A DNA stretch of 64,000 nucleotides from positions 92,270 through 156,269 of IMG/VR virus record IMGVR_UViG_3300048838_001106, one strand, 5' to 3'. The position numbers and the translations under genes were made by a program. This DNA is from a virus. Below the pieces are notes generated by a model, which was not told where the DNA came from, ran no database searches, and was given only the letters and a program-made list of their open reading frames with translations. Below are positions 5,836 to 64,000 of the stretch, piece by piece; position 1 is the stretch's first letter; each line of letters begins with the position of its first letter.

Positions 5836-7260
5836 TCAAAACTCCGGCTTCTTGCCTTTCGATTTGGAAAAGTCTTCCATCAATTCCAGGCCGCCATCTT
5901 TTGTTGGCCGCCAGCGTTTGGTCAAAGTAGGTCTTAGAGCACCTTCGGTGACTACTTTTTCGTAGTAGGGGGAGGTGTCAACGTGGGTGGGGTCTAACAT
6001 CTTCGACGAGGCAATTTCCTCAGGAGACAGGTATCGAGAGTCCCTGGCTACGTGCGCGTGCCAGGGACTTTGCTCTTTAGGGGGGACTTTCGCAGGGTCA
6101 AACTCGAACACAGACGCTCTATTATGTGTGCCTTCGGCGTATTGCCGGGCCACGTCTGGATGCCCTGTCACCCACGTAGGATCTTTAGGCTCTACAACCT
6201 GGTACGGACTCTGAGCTCTGTATGCACGAGATGCCGGGTCGAACATACTGTGTGACTTAAAAATCTCACCCGTCGAATAATTCAACGTTTGAATATCTGG
6301 ATCTATGGGAGAGACGGGTGTAGCTCTCGTGTTCATGATGTATTTTCTCAGGCGAGAGCGCGCAGAATCCGCTTCGAGTTTCGCCTCCCTTGCAGCAGCA
6401 AATATCGCGGCCATATCTTCTCGAGGCATTCTCTGAGGATTTCTTACAGCGTTGTGCACCGTGTCGAGCACAGGATTGAGCGCCGAAGAGGACGTCCGAG
6501 ACTCACTAACCCGGAGTTTGTCCGAGAGAGTTGCCAGCGCCTCAGCTGGAAACGCGGATAGTACATCTCCGGAATCTTGCAAATAAGAATCTACCAGGAA
6601 GGAGATGTCTTGTGCCTTCTCTTCTGGGGACATGACGCGCTCTAGGGTCCGCACAACATCGTGCGGCGACGCATCGTCTGGCAACGCCCTCAGATCGCGC
6701 TGAGCGTCAGGGTGCGCAAAACTAAACAACCTGGCTTGCTGAAGATTAGCAGGATCTGAGGATTGCCTAATCCACGAGGCTGGAACAGGGATGTTCTCAG
6801 CCCCAAGAATGCCAACAGCCTCTTCTGGCTTGAGAGGCCGATCGTGTAGCAGCTTATTGACACTGTATTGGATATTAGGGTTCAGGGCCTCGCCAGCAGA
6901 CGCGTGAAGATGGTCTTCCCGAAGCGGGTTCCGCGGCAAGAAAGACTTCAAATACTTCTCAGGCTCATAAGTTTTAGACAATATGATCTGTTCAATGTCT
7001 TCAGACACGGGCAATCTTCGGGCAGTGTCAGCTAAAGGCGAGAACCGCGAATCTTGCGAACTTGTCCATTCGCGAATCGCAGATGGAACGCCTTCCCAGT
7101 CGCCCGTGCGTCTCCCCCACTGCAATCTCTCTGCAGACACAGGTGCATTGGGGTGCTCGATGTCCAGGAGCTTCTTCAAGAGCCTTGTGTTGATTGCCGT
7201 CTTTTCCAGGCCGGCCACTTTGACCACCGAATTGTATCCATCGATATAACTTGACCGCAT
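5836..7260 (-). CDS. putative packaged effector with the shared N-terminal peptide
   Basis: This 474-residue protein starts MRSSYIDGYNSVVKVAGLEK and continues TAI, one of the clearest copies of the shared peptide. The ATG at 7260 follows GGAGGACTT. The middle is helical. The C-terminal third contains WVTGHPDVARQYAEG and ASVFEFDPAKVPP, a pattern often seen in ADP-ribosyltransferase-type toxins where a Thr/Ser-x-x-P-x-x-A-x-x-Y-A segment follows the NAD site. I cannot identify the catalytic Glu, so this stays tentative. The start overlaps the stop of the 7260-8357 gene (TGATG), which indicates translational coupling. Confidence 0.7.
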   Translation of the reverse strand: MRSSYIDGYNSVVKVAGLEKTAINTRLLKKLLDIEHPNAPVSAERLQWGRRTGDWEGVPSAIREWTSSQDSRFSPLADTARRLPVSEDIEQIILSKTYEPEKYLKSFLPRNPLREDHLHASAGEALNPNIQYSVNKLLHDRPLKPEEAVGILGAENIPVPASWIRQSSDPANLQQARLFSFAHPDAQRDLRALPDDASPHDVVRTLERVMSPEEKAQDISFLVDSYLQDSGDVLSAFPAEALATLSDKLRVSESRTSSSALNPVLDTVHNAVRNPQRMPREDMAAIFAAAREAKLEADSARSRLRKYIMNTRATPVSPIDPDIQTLNYSTGEIFKSHSMFDPASRAYRAQSPYQVVEPKDPTWVTGHPDVARQYAEGTHNRASVFEFDPAKVPPKEQSPWHAHVARDSRYLSPEEIASSKMLDPTHVDTSPYYEKVVTEGALRPTLTKRWRPTKDGGLELMEDFSKSKGKKPEF

Positions 7261-8357
7261 CAAGTCCTCCTGGAAGGCCGCTGCACGGCGGTGGCAACCG
7301 CAGGCAGTGCCTCGGTGTGCGCGGCATACGGCGCTGGCACTGTTTCAGCGCGCGGACCTTGTCTGTGCACTTTCTTTACTGGTATCTCTCCTCGATGCAT
7401 GTAAGCACGCATGTCCGATGCTGAGCTGGACAGCCTTGTGAGCGGGGTGGGGCCGCCCCACTGTGCGCGCTGCAAGTTCGGGAAGTAGCCAGATTTTGGA
7501 TTAGCCGCGCCCTCCTCTACGTGGATACCATGACCCGTTTGCGGAGAATACACGCCATCCGACGGGCGCGTCGGTATGAAGTCCACAACCTTTGATCTTC
7601 CGTCCGCTGTTACAGCAATGTTGTTGCCGTGACTAGACCGCTGCCATGTGTCAGCGAAGTCCTCGCTGCGAAATCCTGGGTGCGCCCGGTCTAGAGACCT
7701 ACGAAGCGCCGCCTCGTCATAGTGCGTGTTGCCGCCTGTCTGTGCGTGAGGCACGTACTCCGTGTAGTGAGTTCGATACTCCTTGCCGGTGACTGGACTG
7801 GTGACCGTCTTTGCGCCGTACAGCTCTGTAAGAGGATTGTCCTCCTTGGCGAAGCGGCGTTGCGATGCCTGCATGATTTGTTCTTTTCGCCTCACGCCCT
7901 TAGGAGAGTAGATGGCCGAGTCCGGGTTGTACGTCTTGCGTGCGACCAGTTGACCTTTGTGAGCCACTAGATCTGCGATGCCTTCACCGCCAGTTCCCAG
8001 GTGACCGACGTATTCCCTGGGAGAGTAGCCTCGCTGCTGCATGGTAGCTAGAAGCTGGTTCGCCTTGTCAGGAGAGGCACCTGCCTGGATGCGGTCAGGA
8101 GCAAGGCGAGTCTTTTTTAGAGGCGTTTGTGGTGCGGTGGCGCCAGGAAACGCCGCAGCAGTCTCCGCGTACGCTGAAGGCTGTGTTTCGGCTACGGTCG
8201 AAGCGTACCTAGTCGGCGCTGCTTTGTTGACATAAGATGGCTCCGTGCTCTTTAACAGAGACCGCAATATCTTTGTCTCTCGCCTGGCCGCTTCTTTTTC
8301 GAGCAGCCCTGCAGCAGCGTATACAGCGTCCATGCCGTCGAAGTAGTTTCTGGTCAT
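7260..8357 (-). CDS. kinase-fold protein, possibly inactive, with the shared N-terminal peptide
   Basis: This 365-residue protein starts MTRNYFDGMDAVYAAAGLLE, a divergent copy of the shared peptide. From about residue 115 it looks like a protein-kinase or aminoglycoside-kinase fold. It has a glycine loop LGTGGEG (120-126), a candidate ATP-binding lysine in ARKTY (K141), a hinge-like TEYVP (199-203), a catalytic-loop-like SSHGNNIAV (241-249) and VVDF (257-260) at the metal-binding site. The catalytic Asp expected before HxGN is Ser here, so it may be a pseudokinase or an unusual enzyme. The C-terminus is Pro-rich and basic. The start codon directly follows the upstream stop (TAAATG). A protein that phosphorylates or binds host targets after ejection is a reasonable guess. 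Confidence 0.7.
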   Translation of the reverse strand: MTRNYFDGMDAVYAAAGLLEKEAARRETKILRSLLKSTEPSYVNKAAPTRYASTVAETQPSAYAETAAAFPGATAPQTPLKKTRLAPDRIQAGASPDKANQLLATMQQRGYSPREYVGHLGTGGEGIADLVAHKGQLVARKTYNPDSAIYSPKGVRRKEQIMQASQRRFAKEDNPLTELYGAKTVTSPVTGKEYRTHYTEYVPHAQTGGNTHYDEAALRRSLDRAHPGFRSEDFADTWQRSSHGNNIAVTADGRSKVVDFIPTRPSDGVYSPQTGHGIHVEEGAANPKSGYFPNLQRAQWGGPTPLTRLSSSASDMRAYMHRGEIPVKKVHRQGPRAETVPAPYAAHTEALPAVATAVQRPSRRT

Positions 8358-8914: not shown

Positions 8915-9406
8915 TTAGATCTCGTCAGCTGCCTGTAATCCTGCCCAGATACCGTGACGCGCCGCGCCTTCACCCGCTACACCACCTAGCAGACCTGCTA
9001 TTACGTTAGGGCTTAGCGGGATTTTGACATTTCGAATTTTAATTTCGTCTGGAAGATTCCCACGCAGAGCATGTCTGGCGATGGCCGACACCACTTGATC
9101 GGTGCCTTCTCCGGCGACTTCGCCGCCGATTGCAGCCCCAAGTTGGTACTTCAAGTCCAGATCTCTGGTGCCGTACATAGCCCCCAGTCCAGGCGCCATG
9201 CGCGCACCAACGTTAAACGGGGACAGCTTTCTGCCAGTTAGGGCGTGCGCTGCTTCTAGAGGGAACTGCGCATAGAAGCCAGCGGACCGGCCAGCCACAG
9301 CGTCTTCGGTAGCTTTGTCCAAATCAGGGCCGAAAGGCCAGGCGGCTGTTTTTGTTGGGAGGCCCGCGTGCGCCAGCACCAGATTGAACCCTGTATGATA
9401 CGTCAC
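8915..9406 (-). CDS. Gly-rich protein with the shared N-terminal peptide
   Basis: This 163-residue protein starts (GTG) with MTYHTGFNLVLAHAGLPTKT followed by AA, the shared peptide. The body is Gly/Ala-rich with several hydrophobic segments (LGAAIGGEVAGEG, VIAGLLGGVAGEG). It resembles the glycine-zipper segments in many virion proteins of this phage. GGAGCAAGGGC precedes the GTG. It is the first gene of the six-gene - strand run, and a divergent + gene begins 129 bases away. A membrane-active or core-packaged role is likely, but no family is recognised. Confidence 0.65.
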   Translation of the reverse strand: MTYHTGFNLVLAHAGLPTKTAAWPFGPDLDKATEDAVAGRSAGFYAQFPLEAAHALTGRKLSPFNVGARMAPGLGAMYGTRDLDLKYQLGAAIGGEVAGEGTDQVVSAIARHALRGNLPDEIKIRNVKIPLSPNVIAGLLGGVAGEGAARHGIWAGLQAADEI

Positions 9407-41416: not shown

Positions 41417-42322
41417 TCAGAGGCGTACGCGCGTAATCGACTTAGTGTTACCGATGCCGATTCCAGGCGCAGCGTATGAGAAGAACTCGATCATGTCGGC
41501 TTCCTGCTTGATGAACAGCGTCGCGTCCTGAAGCAAGAAGAAGTTGCCGAGGTACTCTTGAGGACCAAAGACAAAGAACTCATTGGCGGGAAGGATGTCG
41601 TTCTTGATGGTCGTAATGACGGGGTAGCCCCAGAGAACGTTTTCGTTCTCGACGCCTTCGTCATAGTGACGCGCCGCCACCGGATCGCCGACAGAAGTTG
41701 CGGGCAGCTTCAAGCAATCGTAGTAGAGCTCCTTGGTCATCAAGATCTTTCCAACGGGAATGCGTCGTGATGTAAGGTTCTTGAAAGCGTCAGCAACGTT
41801 GTCTGCGGTAAGACCACCAACCGGCGTCAACTCTTGAGCAGGGTTCATCGAAATGATGGTGTCAAGAGTCTCGTAGAAACGCTCGTCTTCCTGGTCCGCC
41901 ATGTCCTTCACAGAGTTGTCCGAGAGGATCTTGCGGATGTCGTTCTGATACGTCATCAGCTCGAACTTCGATTTGCGGAATCGCTGCGATTCGGTCTTGC
42001 CGAAGTACACTGCGTAGCGAGGTCCTTTGAACCACGTACGGGGGCCTGTGCCTTTGAATGGAACAAACGTGGCGCGTGAATCGGGCTCGATCTCTACGAT
42101 CTTCTTGGGAAGATCGGTGTGCTCGTCACGGTCGAGCTCGTCATCCGACAGGAGCTGTGGCGGGAGGATCTCTCGCGCAAACGACGCCTGGCGCAGTTTC
42201 GATCGAATGAATGCGGAGCCCTCCGCCTGGGCTTCCTTCGTCTGGCCGTTTTCAATCTTTCGAATGAAGTTGCTGTTAACAAGCTGCGCACTTACGCGCG
42301 AGGTTTCTGTATTATATGACAT
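41417..42322 (-). CDS. major capsid protein, HK97-type
   Basis: This 301-residue protein has the features of an HK97-like capsid. The N-terminal helix region contains SFAREILPPQLLSDDELDRD. The E-loop-like middle has FKGTGPRTWFKGPRYAVYFG, and the later P- and A-domain-like segments include PVITTIKNDILPANEFFVFG and an end KQEADMIEFFSYAAPGIGIG. The gene lies after a decoration-type gene and before a strong terminator, which suits a very abundant product. It has no clear delta domain, so the 121-residue coiled-coil gene upstream may be the scaffold. The N-terminus is a candidate for prohead-protease trimming. Confidence 0.82.
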   Translation of the reverse strand: MSYNTETSRVSAQLVNSNFIRKIENGQTKEAQAEGSAFIRSKLRQASFAREILPPQLLSDDELDRDEHTDLPKKIVEIEPDSRATFVPFKGTGPRTWFKGPRYAVYFGKTESQRFRKSKFELMTYQNDIRKILSDNSVKDMADQEDERFYETLDTIISMNPAQELTPVGGLTADNVADAFKNLTSRRIPVGKILMTKELYYDCLKLPATSVGDPVAARHYDEGVENENVLWGYPVITTIKNDILPANEFFVFGPQEYLGNFFLLQDATLFIKQEADMIEFFSYAAPGIGIGNTKSITRVRL

Positions 42323-44515: not shown

Positions 44516-45187
44516 TTATTGAGTGAGTTGTGCGTGCAAAGACTGCATGTGCTCGAAGCCTCGTTCGAAACAGTCATTACTCAGTGCTGCGACCTTTTCG
44601 AGACCGTCGTAGACGCCCTCCATGAAGTCTGCTTGCTGTGCGGCCGCTGTTTTCTCTGCGCCAGTCAATACGCCAAGCGCCCAGTCCGCATCATTGTATC
44701 CTGACACAGCAGCTTCTTTGATCATGACACCTTCAGCGTAGGCCGCCGTTTTCTCTGCGCCAGTCAGCGCGTCTAGCGCCCAGTCCGCATCATAGTATCC
44801 TGACACGGCAGCTTCTTTGATCATGGCATCCTCAGCGTAAGCGTTGTACGCGGCTGTTTTGTGTGAGCCTGGCGTTGGCGCGTTCGCTGCAAACTGGTTA
44901 GCGCGGCTAATAAAGCCGTCAAACACAGCGGCGCCGTAAAGCTGCGCTTCTTTGTGCATGCGATGTTCATCAGCAGCGGCCAGATCAGATGCCATTTTTT
45001 CTAGAGAGGCGACGGCCGACTCACTGGCTACTTTTTCTCGAGGCTGATTCAGCTGATTCAGGCTTGCACTCAGCGCGTTGCGCGCCGCATTGACGTCGAC
45101 TTGCTGGGCCGGCTGCGCCGCAGCTGCCGTTTTTTCCACAGGTGGACGATTGAGGTCCGACAAAATTTGCATGATAGATTGAGACAT
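44516..45187 (-). CDS. virion protein with 34-residue tandem repeats
   Basis: This 223-residue protein begins MSQSIMQILSDLNRPPVEKT followed by AAAA. It contains two copies of a unit of about 34 residues: YAEDAMIKEAAVSGYYDADW then ALDALTGAEKTAA, and again with small changes. The K-T-A/K-E-A motif occurs at least five times (VEKTAA, MHKEAQ, SHKTAA, IKEAAV, AEKTAA). If these are prohead-protease sites, the protein would be cut into many fragments, as expected for a scaffold or core protein. It lies next to the protease gene, which supports this idea. Confidence 0.65.
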   Translation of the reverse strand: MSQSIMQILSDLNRPPVEKTAAAAQPAQQVDVNAARNALSASLNQLNQPREKVASESAVASLEKMASDLAAADEHRMHKEAQLYGAAVFDGFISRANQFAANAPTPGSHKTAAYNAYAEDAMIKEAAVSGYYDADWALDALTGAEKTAAYAEGVMIKEAAVSGYNDADWALGVLTGAEKTAAAQQADFMEGVYDGLEKVAALSNDCFERGFEHMQSLHAQLTQ

Positions 45188-45247: not shown

Positions 45248-47227
45248 TCAACGCATTAAGGCTTCTCCGATCGCCTGTATAGCATCTTCAAGGTCTACTT
45301 CATCGACAGTGGCATTCGCGAATTTAGATATGATTGGAGTCAAGTCTGGAATGTGATTTCTGACACTGGCTGCAACCGATGACGGGTGCAGTGCCATTAG
45401 TCCAGCCAGCGCGGTTGTGTTCGCGAGCCAACCCGCACTTGGGTTGTCCTGATACATTCTTGTGATTTCTGACGGCGCACCCACCATATCTTGTGTGAGC
45501 AGCGCCGTGGTTAGCGCGCCCCCGGCTATTGGAATTCCTACGTTACGCAGACCTGATGCACGTTTTTCCACGAATTCAGTGTTTACAGGGACCTTGACAC
45601 CCTCAAGCGTCTCTACGGTGGGTGTCCGCTGCTTTGTCAGCGTATCTGTGACACCCCACGCGCCACCCAACAACGCCGGTGCGGCCAGCACAGGGTGCCG
45701 GCCCGACAAGGCTTTGTATCCAATACCCGTCACCGCTGCCAATCCAGCAGCCTCTGCCATCTCTTTTTTTCGGTTGGACCAGTCAGCCTTTTCCCCTGCG
45801 CGGCGAGTCGTCTGATAAGTTTTGCCTGTCTTGTCGTCTTGCCAGTGCAGAGGCTGATTTGTCTCGGAGTAGTATGCGTTGGTAGCAGACATATTTTCGT
45901 CACCAGGCAATAGCGTTGCAATGCCTGATTGTTCGGCTAGCCCACCAACACTCTCTGGAACGTATCGCCGGGCAAGATAGTCCTTGTAAAGGGCCCTCTT
46001 TTCTTGCATAGGCGATGTCAGGTCTATCAGGTCCCGTCGGATGTATTCATGGCTCAACTTCACTAAGCCGGCGCGCTCTATCGCCGTCAAAATTTGTGGT
46101 GCCACGCGCAGGGCAGCGGCAACTTTCCCCTGCGAGTACGATAGGCGTTGCTCTATGTCTGGGTCACTAGGTAAGCCTTTCAACATACATATGAGCCGGA
46201 ACAGTTCTACAACGGTGGGCAACATCCCGATAGCGAACATGGAGCTTGCCAATTGAGGTGCGCTGCAGCCGCCAACAGAGGATAGTGCTCTGACGCTGAG
46301 AGTTGGAATCCCCGACTTCCATGGACTTAGAATCTTTGTTGTGTGGTTGACAGCGTTAACTTCAGCCGCGTCCAGCGACGGAGTAGACCTCGGATCAACA
46401 ACGTCACCGGCTACCACCTTTTCTATATCAGACACTTTCTGAAGCGCGCTTCGCTTTTCAGAGATGTCTTGCTCTTCCGCGCCTAAGTCTGCAGATGTTC
46501 GCACATCATATATGTAGGCGACTTTTTTCATCATGAAACCGATGCGATCGGCAGGCTTAAACACGAAGCTGATGTCGAACAAATCTGGTGCGGGGTTCCA
46601 CACAAAGTGACGCTCGCCATCGGGCATCAAACGGTTCATGCCATATTTAGGATTGGTACCGTTCACATGCTCGCAGTACTGCGCACGTGTGGGAGCCCGA
46701 TTGCCGCAGTGATTGCACACATCGTATTTGATGCGGCATCCCATGGACACTGCGGGGTAGTCACCTGCGTCTATTCGATCCACAATGTCTTGCCCCGCGC
46801 TATGTGATACGCGCAAGAACAATTCGACACGGTGCATTTTGTGATTATAGAACGACTTCCTGACGCCGCCCATGGACTTAGCAGGATCTTTGTTGATGTG
46901 GTGGCGATATACGTGCGCGCGCCGCTCAAATGAGCTGTGGTGCTCTGGAAGGGTTTCGCCTGGCGCCACTGCCCACTGCCCATTTACCTTTACCGGTTTC
47001 TCGGCAAACGCATCTCCGTTCCTGTTAGGACCGTAGTACTCGGAGGCACTCATTGCGAGTACCAGGACGTTGGTAAATCCTGGCTCGGTCGTAATGGTGG
47101 AAGCGTAGTCCATCACATCACTGGACGCATACTTATACAGGTGCCTGTCGCGAAGATCCAGGATCTGACATCTCGGCTCTCCTGTTTCCTCGAAATATTC
47201 GTCGAATGTGATGGTCTTTGGAAGCAT
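45248..47227 (-). CDS. prohead (capsid maturation) protease with C-terminal extension
   Basis: This 659-residue protein has an N-terminal protease domain (about 45-200) of the HK97/herpesvirus-type serine protease group. RNGDAF (70-75), a candidate catalytic His in HVYRHHINKDP (about 109) and a Ser in YPAVSMGCRIKYD (161) fit that fold. A zinc-finger-like insert CNHCGN...YCEH (171-187) follows, a known variation in large phages. The long C-terminal part is helical with hydrophobic, Gly-rich segments (LAAVTGIGYKALSG; IPIAGGALTTALLT). It should cut scaffold and capsid proteins. GAGGGGTGA precedes the ATG. The active-site assignment is by pattern. Confidence 0.78.
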   Translation of the reverse strand: MLPKTITFDEYFEETGEPRCQILDLRDRHLYKYASSDVMDYASTITTEPGFTNVLVLAMSASEYYGPNRNGDAFAEKPVKVNGQWAVAPGETLPEHHSSFERRAHVYRHHINKDPAKSMGGVRKSFYNHKMHRVELFLRVSHSAGQDIVDRIDAGDYPAVSMGCRIKYDVCNHCGNRAPTRAQYCEHVNGTNPKYGMNRLMPDGERHFVWNPAPDLFDISFVFKPADRIGFMMKKVAYIYDVRTSADLGAEEQDISEKRSALQKVSDIEKVVAGDVVDPRSTPSLDAAEVNAVNHTTKILSPWKSGIPTLSVRALSSVGGCSAPQLASSMFAIGMLPTVVELFRLICMLKGLPSDPDIEQRLSYSQGKVAAALRVAPQILTAIERAGLVKLSHEYIRRDLIDLTSPMQEKRALYKDYLARRYVPESVGGLAEQSGIATLLPGDENMSATNAYYSETNQPLHWQDDKTGKTYQTTRRAGEKADWSNRKKEMAEAAGLAAVTGIGYKALSGRHPVLAAPALLGGAWGVTDTLTKQRTPTVETLEGVKVPVNTEFVEKRASGLRNVGIPIAGGALTTALLTQDMVGAPSEITRMYQDNPSAGWLANTTALAGLMALHPSSVAASVRNHIPDLTPIISKFANATVDEVDLEDAIQAIGEALMR

Positions 47228-54713: not shown

Positions 54714-57641
54714 CTAGCCGTAGTGCTGCGTTGGCGGGCGGCCGTAGCCTGACTGTTGTTGCTGTTGCTGCTGATAGTATCTGTGCTTTGCCGCTTCGGC
54801 TGCGCGCGCCGCATTGCTATAATATTGCATGTACTTGTAATTGTCCAAGCTGGAGTTAGCCGCGTTGTGTAAGCGCGCACCAACTGGAGCTGGACTGGCC
54901 GGCACGTAGTCTGGGTCTAGCTTTTCTCCGATCGCCCTGCCAGCACCTATGACAGGAGTGGCAATAGCCCAGCCGCCAAGGAAGCCCGCGGGACTCCCGA
55001 GGCCCCAGCCAGCTGTCTCACCAATGGCAGATCCGACGTTTCCAAGACGGGACTCGCCCTCGCCAGCAGGTGTTGTCGCAGCGGTGTACACCGATGCCGC
55101 AGGCAATCCGATGGTGAAAGACTTCTGCAGAGCCTCACTGCCGACCGCAGCGCCTAGTCCCATGTACCTCTCACCTGTGGTGTTAGCATGCACCCTGTAT
55201 TTCTTGCCGTTACGCTCTACGACTTTCGTTTTGTTGAACTCACGCCACGCGCGGGCTGTATCTGGATCTACCGCAAAGTCTCCAGTCAAAAGACCTCCCT
55301 TGCCTATAACGCCACCATGCTGATAACGCTGCTTCAGGACCTGCAGAGGCGACTGTCCGATGGACATATCCTGGAATACACCTTTTCCAATTCGATACCC
55401 TGTAGTGTTCTTGTCGTTCCACGCCTTGAACTTCTCTGGTGTGATGTGCTGAGACAGCCCTGGTATGTGCGCATCCAAAGCTGCAGCATCGTACTTGTGG
55501 TCCGGCGTAGGGACACCCTGCAAGGAGTTGCTCATCCTGTCCCACAAACCGGGCTTCCGCATGCCTTGAATGCTTTTCAGTGCGTTGGCGCCCTCATCTG
55601 TGACAACGCCTCCCCGCGTCACACCAGCCGATTCCCAGTCCACGCCTCCCATACCCTTGCCCATACGGCGAGCAAGGTGTGCTGATTGGTCGATGCCGCC
55701 CTGGGTCCAGCCCTTAGTTGAGATGTGTTTTAGAGGAGCGCTGTCTAACGCGCCGGGTGCGCCAAACAGAAATTTCTTAGCCATAGGTATTAACTTGCCA
55801 GCGGACGCCAGCTTTTCCAGCGCTGACTCGTACTCATCTTGCGCACTGGCATACTTGCCGTCTTGTCCTGTACCGAATGGCGTACCCATAGCAAACGCCG
55901 GCACAGGACTGGTAGACGCCACATTTGTCGTGTGTCCAAAGCCGGCTCCATCTACAAGTGTCTTTCGAAGATACCGATGCGACAATCGAGACATCCAATC
56001 GTCACTCAATAGCGGCGTTTGGATGATGGACTTCATAATGGGTTCGAACTCTGGCGACTTTGTGGACACCTCAATATCTTTGATTCCTGCTTTTTCCAGG
56101 TCTTCTATAACTCTGGATGTGACGCGCGTGCCCACGGAGTAATGCATCGCCGGCGCACCGAGAATCATGTTCTTAGCTTTGGACACCGGCACGCGCTCTG
56201 TATGCTTGCCAAACGCTTTCTGCATGTCTTTGAAAGCCACCACGTCGCCGCGGATGAACGTGTTTGTTGGGTCCTTGTCCACACGTACATAGTTCATCGA
56301 GCTGCGCGCCAGCAGTTCTGCGTGACGTCTGTCCAGATCCACGCCCTGGCGACCGTACAGATCTGATATTGAGTCGGCCATGTACTGTCGTCCGGCGCCG
56401 ACACCCTTCAATCTGACCACATCATTGGGCATTGGGGTGCCATCAGACAGTGCATCCCCCGCCTCAACTCGGTCGTTGACCTTCACGATTGGTTGCAGGC
56501 CTGGCGGAACGTAGTAGTTCTTTGCGTCTACTTTGATGTTCCACCCGCCTTGCGGTGCTTTTGTCACGCTAGATACCGTGCCATCCATTTCCGAAATGGA
56601 GGCCTTGTCCATAAATGACTTTGGAACCTCGGTCAGCGTTCTAAAACCATCTAGGCCGCTCAGAGCACGGCTCTTGCCACCGGCCATGCGTACGCCGTGC
56701 TTTGCGTTTAGAGCGAACTGCGTGAGCGGCTCGGTCAACGCCTGCGCAGACCTGACGCCTACGTTTGACCCTATGGGATATGGATTGCCCCACTCGTTTA
56801 GTCCCATGCATTTCTGACATATGCCGTCGTCTGCTTCGCATGTTGCTGGGCTTCGGACCATAATGCGGTACAGTTTCGATTTTTTAAGATCCGACAACAC
56901 GTGTGGCGTTATCAGGTCGCCAGCCATGTGAGATGCTTCAGCTCTAGCTAGATACCGGTCCACAGCCTGGGCACCAATGGGCAGCATGATTCCGCCTCTG
57001 GTTTTGCAGTCTGGGATGGTGATGACCAAATTTTCCATGTTTGACACGACGACTTTGGCCACAGCACCGGGCTCAACAACGCTGCCCGTCGAAGCGATAG
57101 CGTTGCGACGAGACTCGGCACCAGTTACCCACGCGTCGGCTGCGCTTAGCCCCTGGGAGTAAGACTTGGTAATCAACCACGGCACCTCCTGGCCGTCGGT
57201 TGACGACGCTACAACCGGAGACGCCACTGTTTTCATCAGCTGCGCCATTGAACCGCGCCCACCAGAGCGTGCCATCAGGGTCATGTCAGACTTATGGTGC
57301 GGCACGGTTGCCAAAACCTTGTCCTGGGTCTCCAGCAGAATCTTTCTCTTGTCGGCATCCGTCGTTGCTTTTTTCATCTGCGACAGCGCGCTTTTCAGGA
57401 TTGGATCACGCCTGGCGTAATCCGGCGCGATGTCGTCCAGTCCTACACTGATGCCCTCCAGAGTTGAAATATCATCTCCGACTTTTTTAACATCCTGTAT
57501 CGCACGCGCATATCCTTGTGGGTCTTTCTTAGCGTACGCAGACAGTGCCTCGGATAGCGCCTTCTTGGTGACAGGACCTGTTAAGCGCATGTCCCCCGGA
57601 AGAGCGTCGTTGAGCAGCATTTGGCCGAATGTTTCTGTCAT
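54714..57641 (-). CDS. RNA polymerase beta' subunit, C-terminal part
   Basis: This 975-residue protein holds the C-terminal part of beta'. SGGRGSMAQLMKTVA (126-140) and a trigger-loop-like ITKSYSQGLSAADAWVTGAE (157-176) are present. The four zinc cysteines are C212 (DCKTRGG) and C268, C275, C278 (CEADDGICQKC), and the segment NVGVRSAQALTEPLTQFALN matches the conserved helix after them. Residues to about 600 are polymerase-like. The rest is an extension with Gly-rich hydrophobic stretches (AIGETAGWGLGSPAGFLGGW) and a poly-Gln run near the end. It should pair with the beta/beta'N protein. The extension may serve in virion packaging or membrane contact. Confidence 0.88.
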   Translation of the reverse strand: MTETFGQMLLNDALPGDMRLTGPVTKKALSEALSAYAKKDPQGYARAIQDVKKVGDDISTLEGISVGLDDIAPDYARRDPILKSALSQMKKATTDADKRKILLETQDKVLATVPHHKSDMTLMARSGGRGSMAQLMKTVASPVVASSTDGQEVPWLITKSYSQGLSAADAWVTGAESRRNAIASTGSVVEPGAVAKVVVSNMENLVITIPDCKTRGGIMLPIGAQAVDRYLARAEASHMAGDLITPHVLSDLKKSKLYRIMVRSPATCEADDGICQKCMGLNEWGNPYPIGSNVGVRSAQALTEPLTQFALNAKHGVRMAGGKSRALSGLDGFRTLTEVPKSFMDKASISEMDGTVSSVTKAPQGGWNIKVDAKNYYVPPGLQPIVKVNDRVEAGDALSDGTPMPNDVVRLKGVGAGRQYMADSISDLYGRQGVDLDRRHAELLARSSMNYVRVDKDPTNTFIRGDVVAFKDMQKAFGKHTERVPVSKAKNMILGAPAMHYSVGTRVTSRVIEDLEKAGIKDIEVSTKSPEFEPIMKSIIQTPLLSDDWMSRLSHRYLRKTLVDGAGFGHTTNVASTSPVPAFAMGTPFGTGQDGKYASAQDEYESALEKLASAGKLIPMAKKFLFGAPGALDSAPLKHISTKGWTQGGIDQSAHLARRMGKGMGGVDWESAGVTRGGVVTDEGANALKSIQGMRKPGLWDRMSNSLQGVPTPDHKYDAAALDAHIPGLSQHITPEKFKAWNDKNTTGYRIGKGVFQDMSIGQSPLQVLKQRYQHGGVIGKGGLLTGDFAVDPDTARAWREFNKTKVVERNGKKYRVHANTTGERYMGLGAAVGSEALQKSFTIGLPAASVYTAATTPAGEGESRLGNVGSAIGETAGWGLGSPAGFLGGWAIATPVIGAGRAIGEKLDPDYVPASPAPVGARLHNAANSSLDNYKYMQYYSNAARAAEAAKHRYYQQQQQQQSGYGRPPTQHYG

Positions 57642-57645
57642 TTAG

Positions 57646-58137
57646 TTACCCTACGCCAATGCCGCGCTGGAATCGTGTCTTGTTTAGATTGCCTATCTGG
57701 TGTGCTGTAGTTCCAGCACCGGCCACGTCAGCCGTGTGACCTAGCGCGCGTCCCACAGGTTTAACGCCAGGCGCGTCCAGCACCTTCTTTGCACTACCGG
57801 TAGCGTTACCCACACGCTGCATTGCTTTAGGCGCTACTTTAGACAGCAACCTGCCTCCGGCAGCCAGTGCACCACGCGCGGCCGCGGCAGCAGCTACACC
57901 AACCGCTGCCTCTTTCTCGGCCTGGTTGTACGCTATCAGCAGGTTTCGCATAGCAGCTGCCTTTACGGAGGGTTCCCCCATGTTGATGCCCATGCGTCCT
58001 GCCGCGTCCCCACCCTCCAACGAGGTTGGAGGCCCCCACAACACGGGGTCTACCTTGCTCATCTCTCCAACCATCTTGATGGTGTCTTCCTGCTGCTTGA
58101 TAGCACTGATCAAGTCATCAACACTTTGAATAGCCAT
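57646..58137 (-). CDS. small protein between the polymerase genes
   Basis: This 163-residue protein begins MAIQSVDDLISAIKQQEDTI. It has helical charged segments, a small Ala-rich hydrophobic stretch (EAAVGVAAAAAARGALAAGG) and a basic C-terminus. It sits exactly between the two polymerase genes (4 and 4 bases apart), so it is probably part of the same complex or packaged with it. No family is recognised. It could be a polymerase assembly factor, but nothing in the sequence proves that. Confidence 0.6.
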   Translation of the reverse strand: MAIQSVDDLISAIKQQEDTIKMVGEMSKVDPVLWGPPTSLEGGDAAGRMGINMGEPSVKAAAMRNLLIAYNQAEKEAAVGVAAAAAARGALAAGGRLLSKVAPKAMQRVGNATGSAKKVLDAPGVKPVGRALGHTADVAGAGTTAHQIGNLNKTRFQRGIGVG

Positions 58138-58141
58138 GCGA

Positions 58142-61100
58142 TTACCCTATTTCTACCGGAGTTGTTAGTTGTAGTTCCCCGCGTTTGTACGCGGCCATTG
58201 CTTCATCTTTCGTCTTAAATTTACGCACAGGACCTGTTGCTTGTCCAGAGGTGGCCATATATGCACCGATGAGGGCCTCGTGGGCAGGGAACACCATCAA
58301 CTTGTCTTTGGACGTGTCTCCAAAGATTAGATTAGACAACGTCATACCCTGAGCTTCTTTGACCGCGGCGTCGCCCACCGGCACATGTATTTGCATGGCA
58401 TCACCGTCATAGTCTGCGTTCATACCAGCTTCAGCGAATGGGTTTAGCCGGATTGTCTTGCCAGGCACCAGAGATGGATACGCTGCTACCATGTTGAATC
58501 GGTGCAGCGTCGGAGCCCGGTTGAGAATTGCAGGGCGTTGCTGGATCTCTATGTCTAGCACACGCTTGGCAGCCATAGTTCTGTTCTTGACTTGCTGTCG
58601 CGCCTCTACTGCGCTGTAGCCATTTCGGACCATGCCTTTGACAATGAATGGCTCATACATCTTCCAGGCCATGTCTTCTGGCATGCCTACCTGGTCGAGA
58701 GCAAGTGTGTGGTCGGGAGCGATTGTTCCTCGCCCAGACAGGTCTTGACGACGTCGCATTAGCTTGGATTGAAAGTAGCCTCCTTTCGGACTTCCGGTAC
58801 CCGTAATCTGGGTCAGGTGTCCTTTCACCCCGCGACCTTGATTTTGCGGACTAACGGCGTCTCGAGTACCAAACAGCGCACCTACTGCGTCATGCATGTG
58901 TTGTCTTTGCTTAGCCATTTCTTCTGGGAATCTAAGCTCCTCCGGAATAGCTCGCATAGATTCATCGGCCAGCATCAAGTCACGGTACAGGTAGTTGGCG
59001 TCGGCCACTAGCGTAGTCCCGTCGGCATTGGGAACGATAGGACGCACTACAGGAGGCGTCACGGGTATCTTGCTGAGAACGTAAGCATCTCCAGCTCTAA
59101 GTCCTTGTTTTCGCAGAGCCTTGGCGTACTTCAGTTGCTTCACAGCTGTGTTGAGTGGCGTGCCTGATAGCTTGTTTATTTGCTGTGATAACTCTCGCTC
59201 GTACGCAACAAGGTCTATGGCGTTCAGCCGATCGCGTATCTCAGCCGCGCCTTTCTCATTTCGCAGCTTAGTGAATTCCTTGCCTGACATACCTAGCAAG
59301 TACCTGGCCGGGTCTTCAAACATGGGGTTTACGATAGGCTCAAACAGCTCGATCTTGGAGTATTTCGTGCCCTCCAGCCCGCCTGTGCTTACCGGATCAA
59401 ATAGGCCATCTTTTTCTGGAGCTATTTGAGGGATGCCTTTGACTGTCTGAGGCTTAACAAGCAATGCGTTCTTGATAGACTTCGACGCCAGCGCGTCAAT
59501 ATCTTTGTCCGTCAGGGGAGCTAACGTCATCATCGTGCCCTCCTTCTTGACGTTGACACCTGCACCCCGAAGGGTGTGCGTGAACTTGTCGAATGCGAAA
59601 TTATCAGTGGGTGTCTGCACCGGAAGACCTAGCTGAACTCTGCGCCAGTATTCGTCGTTTCGTTGGCCTTTCACTGCCGCAGTTTCTTGCAATATGTTGC
59701 GCGCGTTATGTGCAATTAGTGCATTGAACTCCATCTTGGCTATGGACTTAGCACCTTCCTCTCCTCCTTTACTTGGCTGCAGATTCGCGTCGTAGCCCGG
59801 TCCAACGCCGCGTGCAGCATAGTTTGTGTCGGTAGACTTAAACATCTTCAGAGTGAATTGGCGTCCGACGTGGATGTTTGGAATGTGCTTCCCACTGATG
59901 GGGTCGTACACAGTCTCTTTGTCCTTGATGCCGTGCTGCTTCAACAAGCCCTTGACCCACTCGACGTTATCCTGATCCTTGAATTGATCAATTTGAATAG
60001 GCTTTCCGGTCTTCTCAACGACCTTGCCGAGCGAGGTCTCCAGGATTTGGGAAGGATTGATGCGCGAGATGATGCCGGCTGACGTCATCAACACGTCGAT
60101 AGGCCTGCCCTTCTCGTCCTTGACCATCTGGTCGTCAGGGATGATCTTTGATACAACGCCTTTGTTGCCGGCTCGTCCTGCTATCTTGTCTCCAACTTGG
60201 ATAGGCTCTTCGGTGCGGATAGTCACCATCACCATCGATGGCGTCACGGCTACGTCCTGCACGGTTCCTGGATAGTCGTGGTCCCAGGTAACACCTGAGT
60301 CGCGGAAAGGTTTGATGAGGGACTTGTGCAGATTGCCTAACATTTGGGCCTTTGCTGTGGGCGCGGTTTTTTGCAGCCCGGCAATCAGCAAGTCCCCGTG
60401 GTTTACCGTGGCCCCTTTTCTAATGACTCCTCTTTCATCCAGCGCCTCGTACTGTGCTCTGGAATACCGCACGCCAAAATGAATTTGATGCTTCTTCTTG
60501 TCGACGCTGGTGGAGGCGTCAAGCCCTATAGACTCCTTGTACATGTGCAAAGATGTGAGTTTCTTCGCCGCGGATTCTGAGATGACAACAGCGTCGTTGG
60601 AGTTGTAGCCGTAGTAGGGCATATAGGCGACGAGCAAGTTCTTACCCAGAGCAAGAGAGCCATCGACGGTGAAGTTGTTGTCTCCTAAGACCTGGCCTTT
60701 TGTGACTTTGTCTCCGGCTTTCACTTTGATGTCATCGTGCATGTACGTCTTAGACATCAGCGGGAAGTAGTTGGATTTTGGAACTCTGACCAGGCCGTCT
60801 TTGTCTTCTTTTGATGCGTACTTGTGCATCTTCGCAGGGTTCGACGGGTCACTTGGGCGGTAGCCCATATCTTTATACATCTGCACAAGCGTATTCACAT
60901 CTGTGCTTCCATCTTTGTAGGGCCGCGCCGTCAGTGTAATACTCCTTCCTTTGTAGTCTTTCTCGATGCGCTGCATCAAATCTCTGGCAATACCCTGCCT
61001 GCGGTACTCCGGCTTCACCCACACGCCAGAAATAAAAACAGAGCCGTCGTCTTTGGGCTCAACAGATGCGTACGCCACGTTGATACCGCCAGAGTGTACG

Positions 61101-62911
61101 TCGTACCTTTTTAGTGTGTTCTTTGTGTCTCCAGGTTTACGGTCTGGCGCCATGCTGTAGCGCAGCTCAGGTGCGGCCTTCTTCAACGCATAGGGTCTGA
61201 TGTACACGTAGTCGTCATCGACGCGCTCAACAGTGCCGTCAATCGGGGACACCGGCACGGTCATGTTCCCAAAGATGTTCTCCACAGACCTGTCCCCAGA
61301 CCAGCTCTTGACCTGGACGAACGGCTGCTCTCGTTCTTTGAGCGGCAAAGCTTGCGTCTGAAACTTTGCGCCCATGATGTTTCGGTTGCCCTGCGCAGAG
61401 TTCAAAAAAGGCACGAGGTTCGTCGTAGGAGAGTACATCGAAGCTGCCGACGGAATAACGTAGTCAACTTCGGTCACACTTACGCTCTGGACTTTTCCGT
61501 CTTTCATGGCGCTGATTTTTCTTCTCCCCGACATGTCTTGCTGAGGAAAGGCAATCACTTTCGATGACAATTCGTCGGCGCGCTTGAACTCCACTTTGTT
61601 GGTCTTCATATTCTTCATTGGCGCATACATATTGCCTGAGCTGTCGCGCACTGTGTGCATCGCTGTGCGGATATCGACACCGGCTTTCCCAGACTCCGGC
61701 GTACGGATCGGGTCCAACACTCCCAGGTGCGAGTGATGCACATCGCGCGCTTCGTCTGGAACAGCTAGCATCGAAGAAATTCCGCCTTCACCAAGCGACG
61801 TTACTTTCACGGAACTGTCGATAATCTCCATGGGGTTAATCTGCATTGGCGTAGCAGCCAGCGCGCTCGTGGTGATGAATGAAGTAATCGACTTTGTGAA
61901 CGGAGAGTTCGGCAGTATGCCAGATATTTTTGGTGCATCACCTGCTCTTTTGAGCTTCGTGCCGACCTTGCGCTTCAGGTCGCGCATCGCATCCTTCTCG
62001 ATGCGCTCCTGCATAAACGTCTCAGCAGTGTGCAGTGTCTTAAACGCTGTGGAATCTCGGTCGTCCTGTTCTTCTTTCCCATTGAACACGTGTAACAATT
62101 TCTGGCTTGCACGAAGCAACCCGAGAGGATTTACGCTGGCCATGCTGATGCCGAGCGTGATTTGCGTAACCTGAGGGTCGAGCACAGTCGCGTCGTACGT
62201 GGATCGAATAGCTTCGACCATGTATTCCCTCGTCGGATTAGCGACCTTAGAGTACGGCGGCGCAAGCTGCTTATACAGTGCTGCTAGCGCGCGGTCTTCT
62301 GCGCCCATACTATGCTGCTTGTTGATCTGCGTGACCTCACGTCCCCAGAACTGCACAACTTTGGTCTCTGGAAGTCCCAATGCAAGTAAGACCGGGAACA
62401 ATGGGATACGCGTCGTTGCGTATTCCATGAAGAACACGCCTTTCTCCGGGTCCATTGACAGACGGAAGTTCTTGCCCTTTGCCAGGTTGAACGCCGCCTC
62501 AAGCTGGCCGTTGTCCCGCTGTCGTGTGTAGACACCTGGCTTAATACGAACCTGATTGGAGATAGAATAGTCGTTTCCACCAACCACGAACGTATGCCTC
62601 TCGGTCAGATAGGGGATATGTACCAGGGTTCGGGTAGACCTATCAATAACTTTACCCGTCGCCTTGTCCTTGAGCACGACTGTGCCTTTCAAGGCCTCGG
62701 TCAGTGTTCGTCCTTCAAGCAGTGCTTGCTTCTGCTCAGTCGGAGAGTACAGCGCTGGAGATGGGTCGAACTTCTCTACCTCCATGATGTACTTGTCACT
62801 GTCGATCTTGAAAGACCGCTGGATGCCCTCCATCACGTGTTCGCGTATCACGTCACGCCGGTCTTCGGCTCTAGACATCAATTCGTACAGTCTCGGTTCT
62901 TTCTCAGCCAT
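58142..62911 (-). CDS. RNA polymerase beta fused to N-terminal beta', with GNAT insert
   Basis: This 1589-residue protein is a fusion. Up to about residue 1150 it is a beta subunit: EDVIREH-type start region, GNKGVVSKIIPDDQMV with SRINPSQILETSLG, and GEEGAKSIAKMEFNALIAHN. Then beta' begins: RRQDLSGRGTIAPDHTLALD, QRPAILNRAPTLHRFNMVAA and the catalytic NADYDGDAM (about 1500), whose three Asp residues bind Mg. It stops shortly after, so the rest of beta' is in the 54714-57641 gene. Within beta, residues about 585-695 form a GNAT-like domain (VWVKPEYRRQGIARDLMQRI) placed just before a conserved beta segment ending LGKNLLVAYMPYYGYNSNDA. The frame opens at 62974; the ATG at 62911 follows GGTGAGAGC. 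Confidence 0.88.
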   Translation of the reverse strand: MAEKEPRLYELMSRAEDRRDVIREHVMEGIQRSFKIDSDKYIMEVEKFDPSPALYSPTEQKQALLEGRTLTEALKGTVVLKDKATGKVIDRSTRTLVHIPYLTERHTFVVGGNDYSISNQVRIKPGVYTRQRDNGQLEAAFNLAKGKNFRLSMDPEKGVFFMEYATTRIPLFPVLLALGLPETKVVQFWGREVTQINKQHSMGAEDRALAALYKQLAPPYSKVANPTREYMVEAIRSTYDATVLDPQVTQITLGISMASVNPLGLLRASQKLLHVFNGKEEQDDRDSTAFKTLHTAETFMQERIEKDAMRDLKRKVGTKLKRAGDAPKISGILPNSPFTKSITSFITTSALAATPMQINPMEIIDSSVKVTSLGEGGISSMLAVPDEARDVHHSHLGVLDPIRTPESGKAGVDIRTAMHTVRDSSGNMYAPMKNMKTNKVEFKRADELSSKVIAFPQQDMSGRRKISAMKDGKVQSVSVTEVDYVIPSAASMYSPTTNLVPFLNSAQGNRNIMGAKFQTQALPLKEREQPFVQVKSWSGDRSVENIFGNMTVPVSPIDGTVERVDDDYVYIRPYALKKAAPELRYSMAPDRKPGDTKNTLKRYDVHSGGINVAYASVEPKDDGSVFISGVWVKPEYRRQGIARDLMQRIEKDYKGRSITLTARPYKDGSTDVNTLVQMYKDMGYRPSDPSNPAKMHKYASKEDKDGLVRVPKSNYFPLMSKTYMHDDIKVKAGDKVTKGQVLGDNNFTVDGSLALGKNLLVAYMPYYGYNSNDAVVISESAAKKLTSLHMYKESIGLDASTSVDKKKHQIHFGVRYSRAQYEALDERGVIRKGATVNHGDLLIAGLQKTAPTAKAQMLGNLHKSLIKPFRDSGVTWDHDYPGTVQDVAVTPSMVMVTIRTEEPIQVGDKIAGRAGNKGVVSKIIPDDQMVKDEKGRPIDVLMTSAGIISRINPSQILETSLGKVVEKTGKPIQIDQFKDQDNVEWVKGLLKQHGIKDKETVYDPISGKHIPNIHVGRQFTLKMFKSTDTNYAARGVGPGYDANLQPSKGGEEGAKSIAKMEFNALIAHNARNILQETAAVKGQRNDEYWRRVQLGLPVQTPTDNFAFDKFTHTLRGAGVNVKKEGTMMTLAPLTDKDIDALASKSIKNALLVKPQTVKGIPQIAPEKDGLFDPVSTGGLEGTKYSKIELFEPIVNPMFEDPARYLLGMSGKEFTKLRNEKGAAEIRDRLNAIDLVAYERELSQQINKLSGTPLNTAVKQLKYAKALRKQGLRAGDAYVLSKIPVTPPVVRPIVPNADGTTLVADANYLYRDLMLADESMRAIPEELRFPEEMAKQRQHMHDAVGALFGTRDAVSPQNQGRGVKGHLTQITGTGSPKGGYFQSKLMRRRQDLSGRGTIAPDHTLALDQVGMPEDMAWKMYEPFIVKGMVRNGYSAVEARQQVKNRTMAAKRVLDIEIQQRPAILNRAPTLHRFNMVAAYPSLVPGKTIRLNPFAEAGMNADYDGDAMQIHVPVGDAAVKEAQGMTLSNLIFGDTSKDKLMVFPAHEALIGAYMATSGQATGPVRKFKTKDEAMAAYKRGELQLTTPVEIG

Positions 62912-63006
62912 GCTCTCACCGCCTGTTCTAATCGTTGGGAGTATACGCCTGGTTGGAGGAAATCGCCACCCCATCTGAGAGTCAAAAAATGGACACCTGT
63001 TTCTGT

Positions 63007-63645: not shown

Positions 63646-63681
63646 TTTGTTTCACTTGGCCACCAGGGCACGGAGTTCTTA

Positions 63682-64000
63682 TGAAGAACGTCGCACGTAT
63701 TGTTCTCGCGCTTCGGCGCATGGTTAAACCCTCCCCTGCTCCTAAGAAGAGCAGGGCTGTCACGCCCACCCCTGAGCCTCCCGTCGAGACGGTTGAGGCT
63801 GTCACGCCCACCCCTGAGCCTCCCGTCGAGACGGTTGAGGCTGCTCCCACCCCTGAGCCTCCCGTCGAGACGGTTGAGGCTGTCACGCCCACCCCTGAGC
63901 CTCCCGTCGAGACGGTTGAGGCTGTCACGCCCACCCCTGAGCCTCCCGTCGAGACGGTTGAGGCTGTCACGCCCACCCCTGAGCCTCCCGTCGAGACGGT
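63682..64000 (+). CDS. protein with 14-residue Pro/Glu/Thr/Val repeats (partial)
   Basis: The gene runs past the window end. It begins MKNVARIVLALRRMVKPSPA and has repeats of PTPEPPVETVEA with VT or A between them, encoded by 42-base units. One unit is three bases shorter. The ATG follows CACGGAGTTCTT, like its early neighbours, and P8 lies upstream. The repeats are acidic, rich in Pro and likely disordered or fibrous. Each DNA repeat contains CCGTC-GA-GACGG, and CCCTGCTC/GAGCAGGG (63734-63756) is another inverted repeat. Confidence 0.7.
63764..64000 (+). repeat. 42-base tandem repeat array
   Basis: Near-exact 42-base units encode the 14-residue repeats of the 63682 gene. The third is 39 bases, and the array continues beyond the window. 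It is a coding repeat, not a CRISPR: the units are contiguous, without unique spacers. Confidence 0.9.

Follow-up and report, generated by a model that had tools for sequence, protein, structure and literature searches.

Alignment of relatives shows that one hairpin loop in the beta subunit of a predicted phage RNA polymerase (hereafter the slot) is the same site throughout a phage family and that its contents have been exchanged within that family. In the window (that is, the whole 64,000-nucleotide stretch of DNA analysed, part of a 156,269-base IMG/VR phage record, G000), the slot contains an acetyltransferase-like (GNAT) domain, and we suggest that the polymerase may double as a vehicle that brings swappable enzymes into the host. 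The catalytic subunits of RNA polymerases are among the most conserved proteins, and the repeated swapping of unrelated enzyme domains at a single loop of beta is unexpected for so conserved a protein. As the GNAT is one of several domains found in this loop, the question becomes why the loop accepts enzymes rather than why a polymerase should be acetylated.

The fused polymerase and its family

Six features of the window, all on one strand, make up the polymerase locus:

58142..62911, minus strand: fused beta and N-terminal beta' (beta'N), P0001 (open frame, Pfam and PDB matches; same fusion at ~100 loci)
61190..62911, minus strand: N-terminal part of beta, residues 1-574 (Rpb2_3 match, alignment)
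59537..60790, minus strand: C-terminal part of beta with GDKIAGRAGNKG, residues 708-1125 (Rpb2_6, 3e-53; Foldseek to bacterial beta)
58145..59419, minus strand: beta'N, residues ~1165-1589, with NADYDGD at 58394-58420 (Pfam, PDB matches)
57646..58137, minus strand: 163-aa ORF lying between P0001 and P0002 (homologue at the corresponding position in relative L001, 33% identity, 1e-15)
54714..57641, minus strand: C-terminal beta' (beta'C), P0002 (Pfam, TIGR02386)

A first-pass annotation had read beta motifs followed by beta' motifs up to NADYDGDAM in one frame, with the rest of beta' in a separate gene, and both readings are borne out. P0001 is a single open frame of 1589 aa, the start of which (62911; the longest frame begins at 62974) agrees with the start in aligned relatives, and its Pfam matches run from beta (Rpb2_3 at 357-411, Rpb2_6 at 730-1049) to beta' (Rpb1_1 and Rpb1_2 within 1266-1524, 7e-25). 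The beta barrel retains its conserved lysines (GDK.AGR.GNKG, residues 907-918) and beta' its catalytic aspartate triad NADxDGD (NADYDGD at 1498-1504, NADYDGDAM at 1498-1506). In a PDB sequence search, residues 1213-1587 align to residues 163-538 of Bacillus subtilis beta', indicating that the first ~150 aa of beta' are absent and that the chain stops just past the catalytic barrel. P0002 resumes beta' from position 550 of the TIGR02386 model (3.5e-50 over residues 3-495; Rpb1_5, 1.4e-13) and contains a bridge helix (AWVTGAESRRN) and trigger loop (ALTEPLTQFALNAKHG), both assigned by eye and spanned by the Rpb1_5 and TIGR02386 matches. In a 796-residue AlphaFold model of beta, large parts of the core are well predicted (pLDDT around 90 in many blocks), and a Foldseek search with this model returns bacterial beta chains. 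Together, P0001 and P0002 are a predicted multi-subunit (that is, double-psi-barrel) RNA polymerase. P0002 also has a ~375-aa C-terminal extension (window 54714-55850) that is common to L001 and absent from most relatives (~600 aa).

Two profile searches of IMG/VR (80 loci each) yielded 108 distinct beta sequences after removal of near-copies. The fusion of beta to beta'N occurs at ~100 distinct contigs, including nearly all members of the first 80-locus set, and in cultured phages: Salmonella phage Arash and Vibrio phage D69 encode it as a 1525-1527-aa protein with beta'C separate, and in Vibrio phages D148 and D181 the match to the fused protein is interrupted. Judged from these sequences, the fusion is a trait of a large family of phages and is not unique to this genome. 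The record is metagenomic, and nothing else was found in favour of an assembly or frameshift artefact, which we regard as vanishingly improbable because the same fusion recurs in these ~100 independent contigs and cultured phages and because the GNAT recurs at the same site in two further contigs (L008 and L100).

Several other departures from a plain gene structure were observed in the family. In D181 (L006), the polymerase gene breaks off after residue ~505, where a region annotated with a homing endonuclease intervenes, and in L069, L070, L072 and L082, beta, beta'N and beta'C all lie in one open frame (2090-2871 aa). In-frame insertions of ~350-540 aa interrupt three highly conserved polymerase motifs, namely the RTPE site of beta (L030, L035, L043, L054 and L069), the GDK site (L057-L059, L061, L062 and L066) and the NADYDG site (L044, L046, L048 and L052); those seen at the RTPE and GDK sites begin with Cys and end with GN, and are thus intein-like in sequence. 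A separate 166-aa insert at beta position ~256 (L083/L084:10718-11215) had no PHROG match.

An exchangeable slot in beta

The slot and its contents in the window are as follows:

60791..61189, minus strand: slot, hairpin loop of beta, residues 575-707 (alignment of relatives, AF2 strands)
60821..61111, minus strand: predicted GNAT domain, residues 601-697 (Pfam, AF2 pLDDT 78.8, Foldseek PDB/BFVD)
60986..61003, minus strand: putative acetyl-CoA loop R-R-Q-G-I-A, residues 637-642 (R and G retained in L100 and L008)
60860..60880, minus strand: MYKDMGY with candidate general-acid Tyr, helix alpha4 (Tyr retained in all three GNAT inserts)

In the alignment and the AF2 model, the slot is bracketed by the strands DDYVYIRP (566-573; 568-573 in the model) and LVRVP (707-711; 708-711 in the model), and the stretch that follows it has weak Pfam matches to barrel-sandwich-hybrid families. 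The first-pass annotation had proposed a GNAT insert at residues 585-695; the fold is supported by Pfam, AlphaFold and Foldseek, and the range is corrected to ~601-697 by the model. The Pfam matches, at 610-685, fall between the two beta matches (35.5 bits for Acetyltransf_7, the curated cut-off being 27, with E 1.3e-8; 33.5 bits for Acetyltransf_1, cut-off 20.7), and the GNAT signature WVKPEYRRQGIARDLMQRI occupies residues 631-649. The R/Q-x-x-G-x-G/A acetyl-CoA loop is represented by RRQGIA in the window, RGQGLA in L100 and RGKGLS in L008, and its R-x-x-G core, an ARP[YF][KR]D stretch and the alpha4 Tyr are common to the three inserts, which are only 30-45% identical.

Structure prediction and a search for the same insert in large-phage genomes, both proposed at the outset as checks, agree with this assignment. 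An AlphaFold model built from two sequences (pLDDT 78.8, pTM 0.72) has a GNAT fold, and every PDB match listed by Foldseek is a GNAT or a protein with a GNAT domain (probability 1.00), with AcrVA5 giving the best target-normalised TM-score among the matches listed (0.78). Its PDB neighbours also include 4cry (PanZ) and ICL2 (6edz), in both of which acetyl-CoA binding by a GNAT-like domain is regulatory. Viral structural matches include GNATs within large phage proteins (for example, in Tenacibaculum phage Gundel_1, a structural protein of 1241 aa). The usual helices alpha1-alpha2 before the central sheet are missing in both AlphaFold models; this does not exclude membership of the GNAT superfamily, because AcrVA5 and other small GNATs are short as well. 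In the 796-residue beta model, confidence is moderate for the domain, which is folded, and below 50 for the linker (~577-597). We conclude from these matches and models that the insert is a predicted GNAT-fold domain, for which we infer acetyl-CoA binding, catalytic activity and a target; the first-pass annotation had listed the polymerase, a host target or a small molecule as candidate substrates. No catalytic base was found in the P0001 domain; this and the missing helices alpha1-alpha2 count against an active effector.

Acetyltransf_7 had no further match in the record of the window or in the L008 contig, the GNAT alone had no match in a close-homologue search of IMG/VR, a two-row GNAT profile matched only the L008 contig itself in IMG/VR (L100 came from the beta search), and tblastn against cultured phages gave weak matches only.

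Across the family, the loop is short in most members, and where it is filled its contents differ. A GNAT occupies it in the window, L008 and L100. An inorganic pyrophosphatase (InPase) domain, PF18823, occupies it in L007, L009-L012, L015, L050, L054, L106 (below the curated cut-off), L107, L132 and L152; the inserts of L009-L012 and L015 are near-identical, and only that of L010 was scanned as such. Compound contents include an InPase plus a stretch that is ParB-like to the eye, without a Pfam match (L045), an InPase plus one further stretch (L150) and a 551-aa load with sub-threshold InPase and P-loop kinase-type matches, the first part of which has no assignment by Pfam (L129:5505-7157). 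In L013, L014 and L016 the slot holds a 141-aa domain; that of L013 matches only phrog_30942 (unknown function) and received no assignment in Pfam, NCBIfam or PDB sequence searches. The provisional label 'hydrolase-like' for the L013 insert came from its GHSRG motif and is no assignment. Five divergent relatives from a scan of MAG contigs have no slot insert.

Mapped onto trees, slot content requires four changes among 66 rows and seven among 108 rows, six of which are forced by well supported branches, and the GNAT accounts for two. The nearest sequence by beta core, L100 (67% identical over tree columns), has a GNAT in the slot, and the close relative L001 (64-65% identical in the beta core) has no insert. 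On this sequence basis, the GNAT appears to have entered the slot at least twice, once in the lineage of the window and L100 and once in that of L008. The window and L008 GNATs are homologous (33% identity), which implies that distant branches acquired one kind of domain, whether by entry or by exchange. Loss of the GNAT from a common ancestor instead of repeated gain is possible and would require many losses. The patchy presence of the insert and its fast divergence (45% identity between the window and L100, compared with 67% for the beta core) would also be expected of a neutral passenger, inactive or decaying; given that the CoA loop and Tyr are kept in all three inserts, that the frame is undamaged and that independent gains are repeated, we consider such a passenger quite improbable.

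A proposed role in delivery and its alternatives

The polymerase genes lie on the same strand as, and in one late gene run with, genes for a head maturation protease, the major head protein and a tail sheath:

45248..47227, minus strand: predicted head maturation protease, same late run (phrog_18299, 2e-6)
44516..45187, minus strand: putative scaffold protein (from its position), four KTAA motifs
41417..42322, minus strand: major head protein (phrog_2522, 6.8e-7)

In Arash, gp206 is the most detected virion protein (3516 spectra) and gp216 ranks fifth (1210 spectra; PMC10585845). As these homologues rank among the most abundant proteins of the Arash virion, the P0001 polymerase is most likely a virion RNA polymerase, and we infer by analogy that it is packaged in the window phage itself. 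The 156-kb record contains a single match to P0001; the record is possibly incomplete, and a divergent second (that is, non-virion) polymerase could escape the search. Sigma70_r2 had no match in G000, nor in L001 and L100 of the same clade, and is present in 25 of the 30 family records searched; promoter recognition in this clade may differ, or these records may be incomplete.

Further observations were made on the record. Both of its ends (window 63680-64000; G000:C1:13-1278) lie inside the same VTPTPEPPVETVEA repeat, so that the record may be circular, its ends meeting in a repeat that has been collapsed. An N-terminal motif (Y..G[YF]N..l.KtAGL-like) recurs in eight G000 proteins against 0.33 expected from shuffles (including window 5836-7263, 7260-8357 and 8915-9406), and is possibly a head-targeting peptide. 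Outside the window, L090:13889-16912 encodes a family A DNA polymerase with an N-terminal uracil-DNA-glycosylase-superfamily domain.

We propose that the beta-beta'N chain and P0002 would be packaged in the phage head and injected together with the DNA, that the beta hairpin loop would serve as a tolerated landing site for additional enzyme domains, and that the slot GNAT of the window phage, still binding acetyl-CoA, would enter with the polymerase as infection begins and acetylate a host (or early phage) protein in a manner that favours infection. We regard this early host-modifying role as evenly poised between right and wrong. GNAT and InPase are listed among the components of polyvalent phage proteins that are injected, and N4-type virion polymerases bear ART, lysozyme or PBECR domains (PMC5512222). 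InPase PF18823 is itself a polyvalent-protein family, and the domain families of the slot match those of polyvalent proteins (GNAT, InPase), with injection here proposed by analogy. Two relatives with empty slots have an InPase elsewhere in the late region (a 460-aa ORF with a HEXXH motif in L024 and a 157-aa ORF in L018). It is because GNAT and InPase occur in polyvalent proteins, virion polymerases bear such domains and InPase occurs elsewhere in late ORFs that we favour delivery. The Arash polymerase, which has no slot insert, counts against it; action on the polymerase, acetyl-CoA sensing and release by proteolysis are also possible roles.

The main rival to delivery is a role in cis, in which the GNAT would acetylate the polymerase or sense acetyl-CoA to tune early transcription and the InPase would remove the pyrophosphate that the polymerase produces. 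Every insert occurs at one place on a polymerase, as such a role would predict, and the GNAT model has among its neighbours 4cry and ICL2 (6edz), whose GNAT-like domains have the regulatory role noted above. InPase domains have been proposed to clear pyrophosphate for polymerases (PMC5512222), and a slot InPase that could do so here would point to action in cis by slot domains generally; the role suits InPase better than GNAT. Set against this, slot contents are mutually unrelated and mostly absent (the close relative L001 has none), and model confidence is very low in the linker that leads into the GNAT from its N-terminal side, as it would be for a flexible tether. We consider a cis role rather unlikely.

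Alternatively, or in addition to delivery, the insert may be a cleavable cassette. Two motifs from a motif scan flank it:

61166..61183, minus strand: K-x-A-A motif (KKAAPE), N-terminal edge of the insert
60803..60823, minus strand: K-x-A-S motif (KYASKED), C-terminal edge of the insert

Here, the head maturation protease would cut at K-x-A/G/S-A on both sides, freeing the GNAT as an ejection protein and leaving beta nicked in the virion. Among related and hence not independent sequences, 18 of 19 inserts have K-x-[AGS]-[AS] at the C-terminal edge, where 1.7 would be expected, and 8 have it at both edges, against an expected 0.2. Of the 53 slots that lack an insert and are at least 4 aa long, 43 contain it (5.9 expected), and similar motifs lie between the parts of the L129 load. 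KTAA occurs nine times in minus-strand (late) proteins of the window phage (0.9 expected) and in none of the plus-strand (early) ones; four copies are in the putative scaffold, which adjoins the protease. The vRNAP beta of phage 201phi2-1 is cut by its prohead protease, whereas that of SPN3US is unprocessed and the known giant-phage sites are x-x-E (PMC5694885). Lys/Ala-rich linkers are, moreover, common, and enrichment in de-orthologised flanking ORFs is weak (3 against 1.4). A test of 4-mer enrichment in the late genes of relatives was set aside, being swamped by orthologues, and KTAA was no longer clearly enriched once these were removed. Owing to this shared ancestry and the weak de-orthologised test, protease cleavage is retained as a rival or addition to delivery that we find doubtful, and the fuller scenario, in which a cellular-type polymerase acts as a delivery vehicle for interchangeable loop domains, which would be excised inside the phage head and set free in the host along with the polymerase, is just as doubtful.

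Injected virion polymerases are already known; what would be new, by analogy with them, is polyvalent-type cargo carried at one exchangeable site on an injected polymerase of cellular type. The first-pass annotation knew of no comparable insert, and likewise a literature search (main texts, few subscription papers) found no report of a GNAT or InPase inside a multi-subunit polymerase subunit. The slot joins two lines of research, on injected virion polymerases and on injected polyvalent effector proteins, and the phages listed here, with one short stretch of sequence, indicate where new early effectors can be sought. The subunit arrangement, in which beta is joined to beta'N and beta'C is separate or, in a few members, part of the same chain, also bears on how phage polymerases split and fused.

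Comparison with known systems

The closest cultured counterparts are Arash gp206/gp216 and the polymerases of Vibrio phages D69, D148 and D181, which share the fusion (interrupted in D148 and D181) and the separate beta'C and are 36-38% identical to the window proteins, yet have no slot insert. Both Arash subunits are detected in virions, and Arash has a sigma factor, compared with no Sigma70_r2 match in G000; the Arash annotation, in the parts consulted, does not comment on the fusion (PMC10585845). The mReC Caudovirales (Weinheimer and Aylward 2020) likewise have clearly recognisable beta and beta'; fusion and slot inserts are not mentioned in the parts consulted. Polymerases of phiKZ-like phages (virion and non-virion) are also multi-subunit, with a virion-packaged form and a beta' split after the barrel domain, but their beta is itself divided between polypeptides and unjoined to beta', with no GNAT or InPase insert found described, whereas beta in P0001 is unsplit. 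The first-pass annotation held that known multi-subunit phage polymerases (phiKZ-like) split beta and beta' differently from this one, which is right for the joining of beta to beta'N and not for the break in beta', as phiKZ-like and cyanobacterial beta' break at the same point (PMC7598289). It is thus only this joining that sets P0001 apart from phiKZ-like enzymes. Bacillus jumbo phages provide a further case of an added domain, an N-terminal HD domain on a beta-C subunit. The anti-CRISPR acetyltransferase AcrVA5 resembles the insert as a minimal GNAT (96 residues in the structure), but is a stand-alone protein with 23% identity to the insert, and a common target is not implied.

Among cellular enzymes, the rpoB-rpoC fusions of Helicobacter and Wolbachia join beta to beta', as P0001 does, and cyanobacterial rpoC1/rpoC2 split beta' near the same place. 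To our knowledge, neither combines the joining with the split, and P0001 differs from all of them in that the first ~150 aa of beta' are absent. Closest in proposed function are the polyvalent proteins (Iyer et al. 2017) and N4-type virion polymerases, which are injected with GNAT, InPase and other domains and demonstrate that a polymerase can carry them; they use a single-subunit T7-type polymerase or a non-polymerase protein as carrier, whereas in the window the domain lies inside a catalytic subunit of cellular type.
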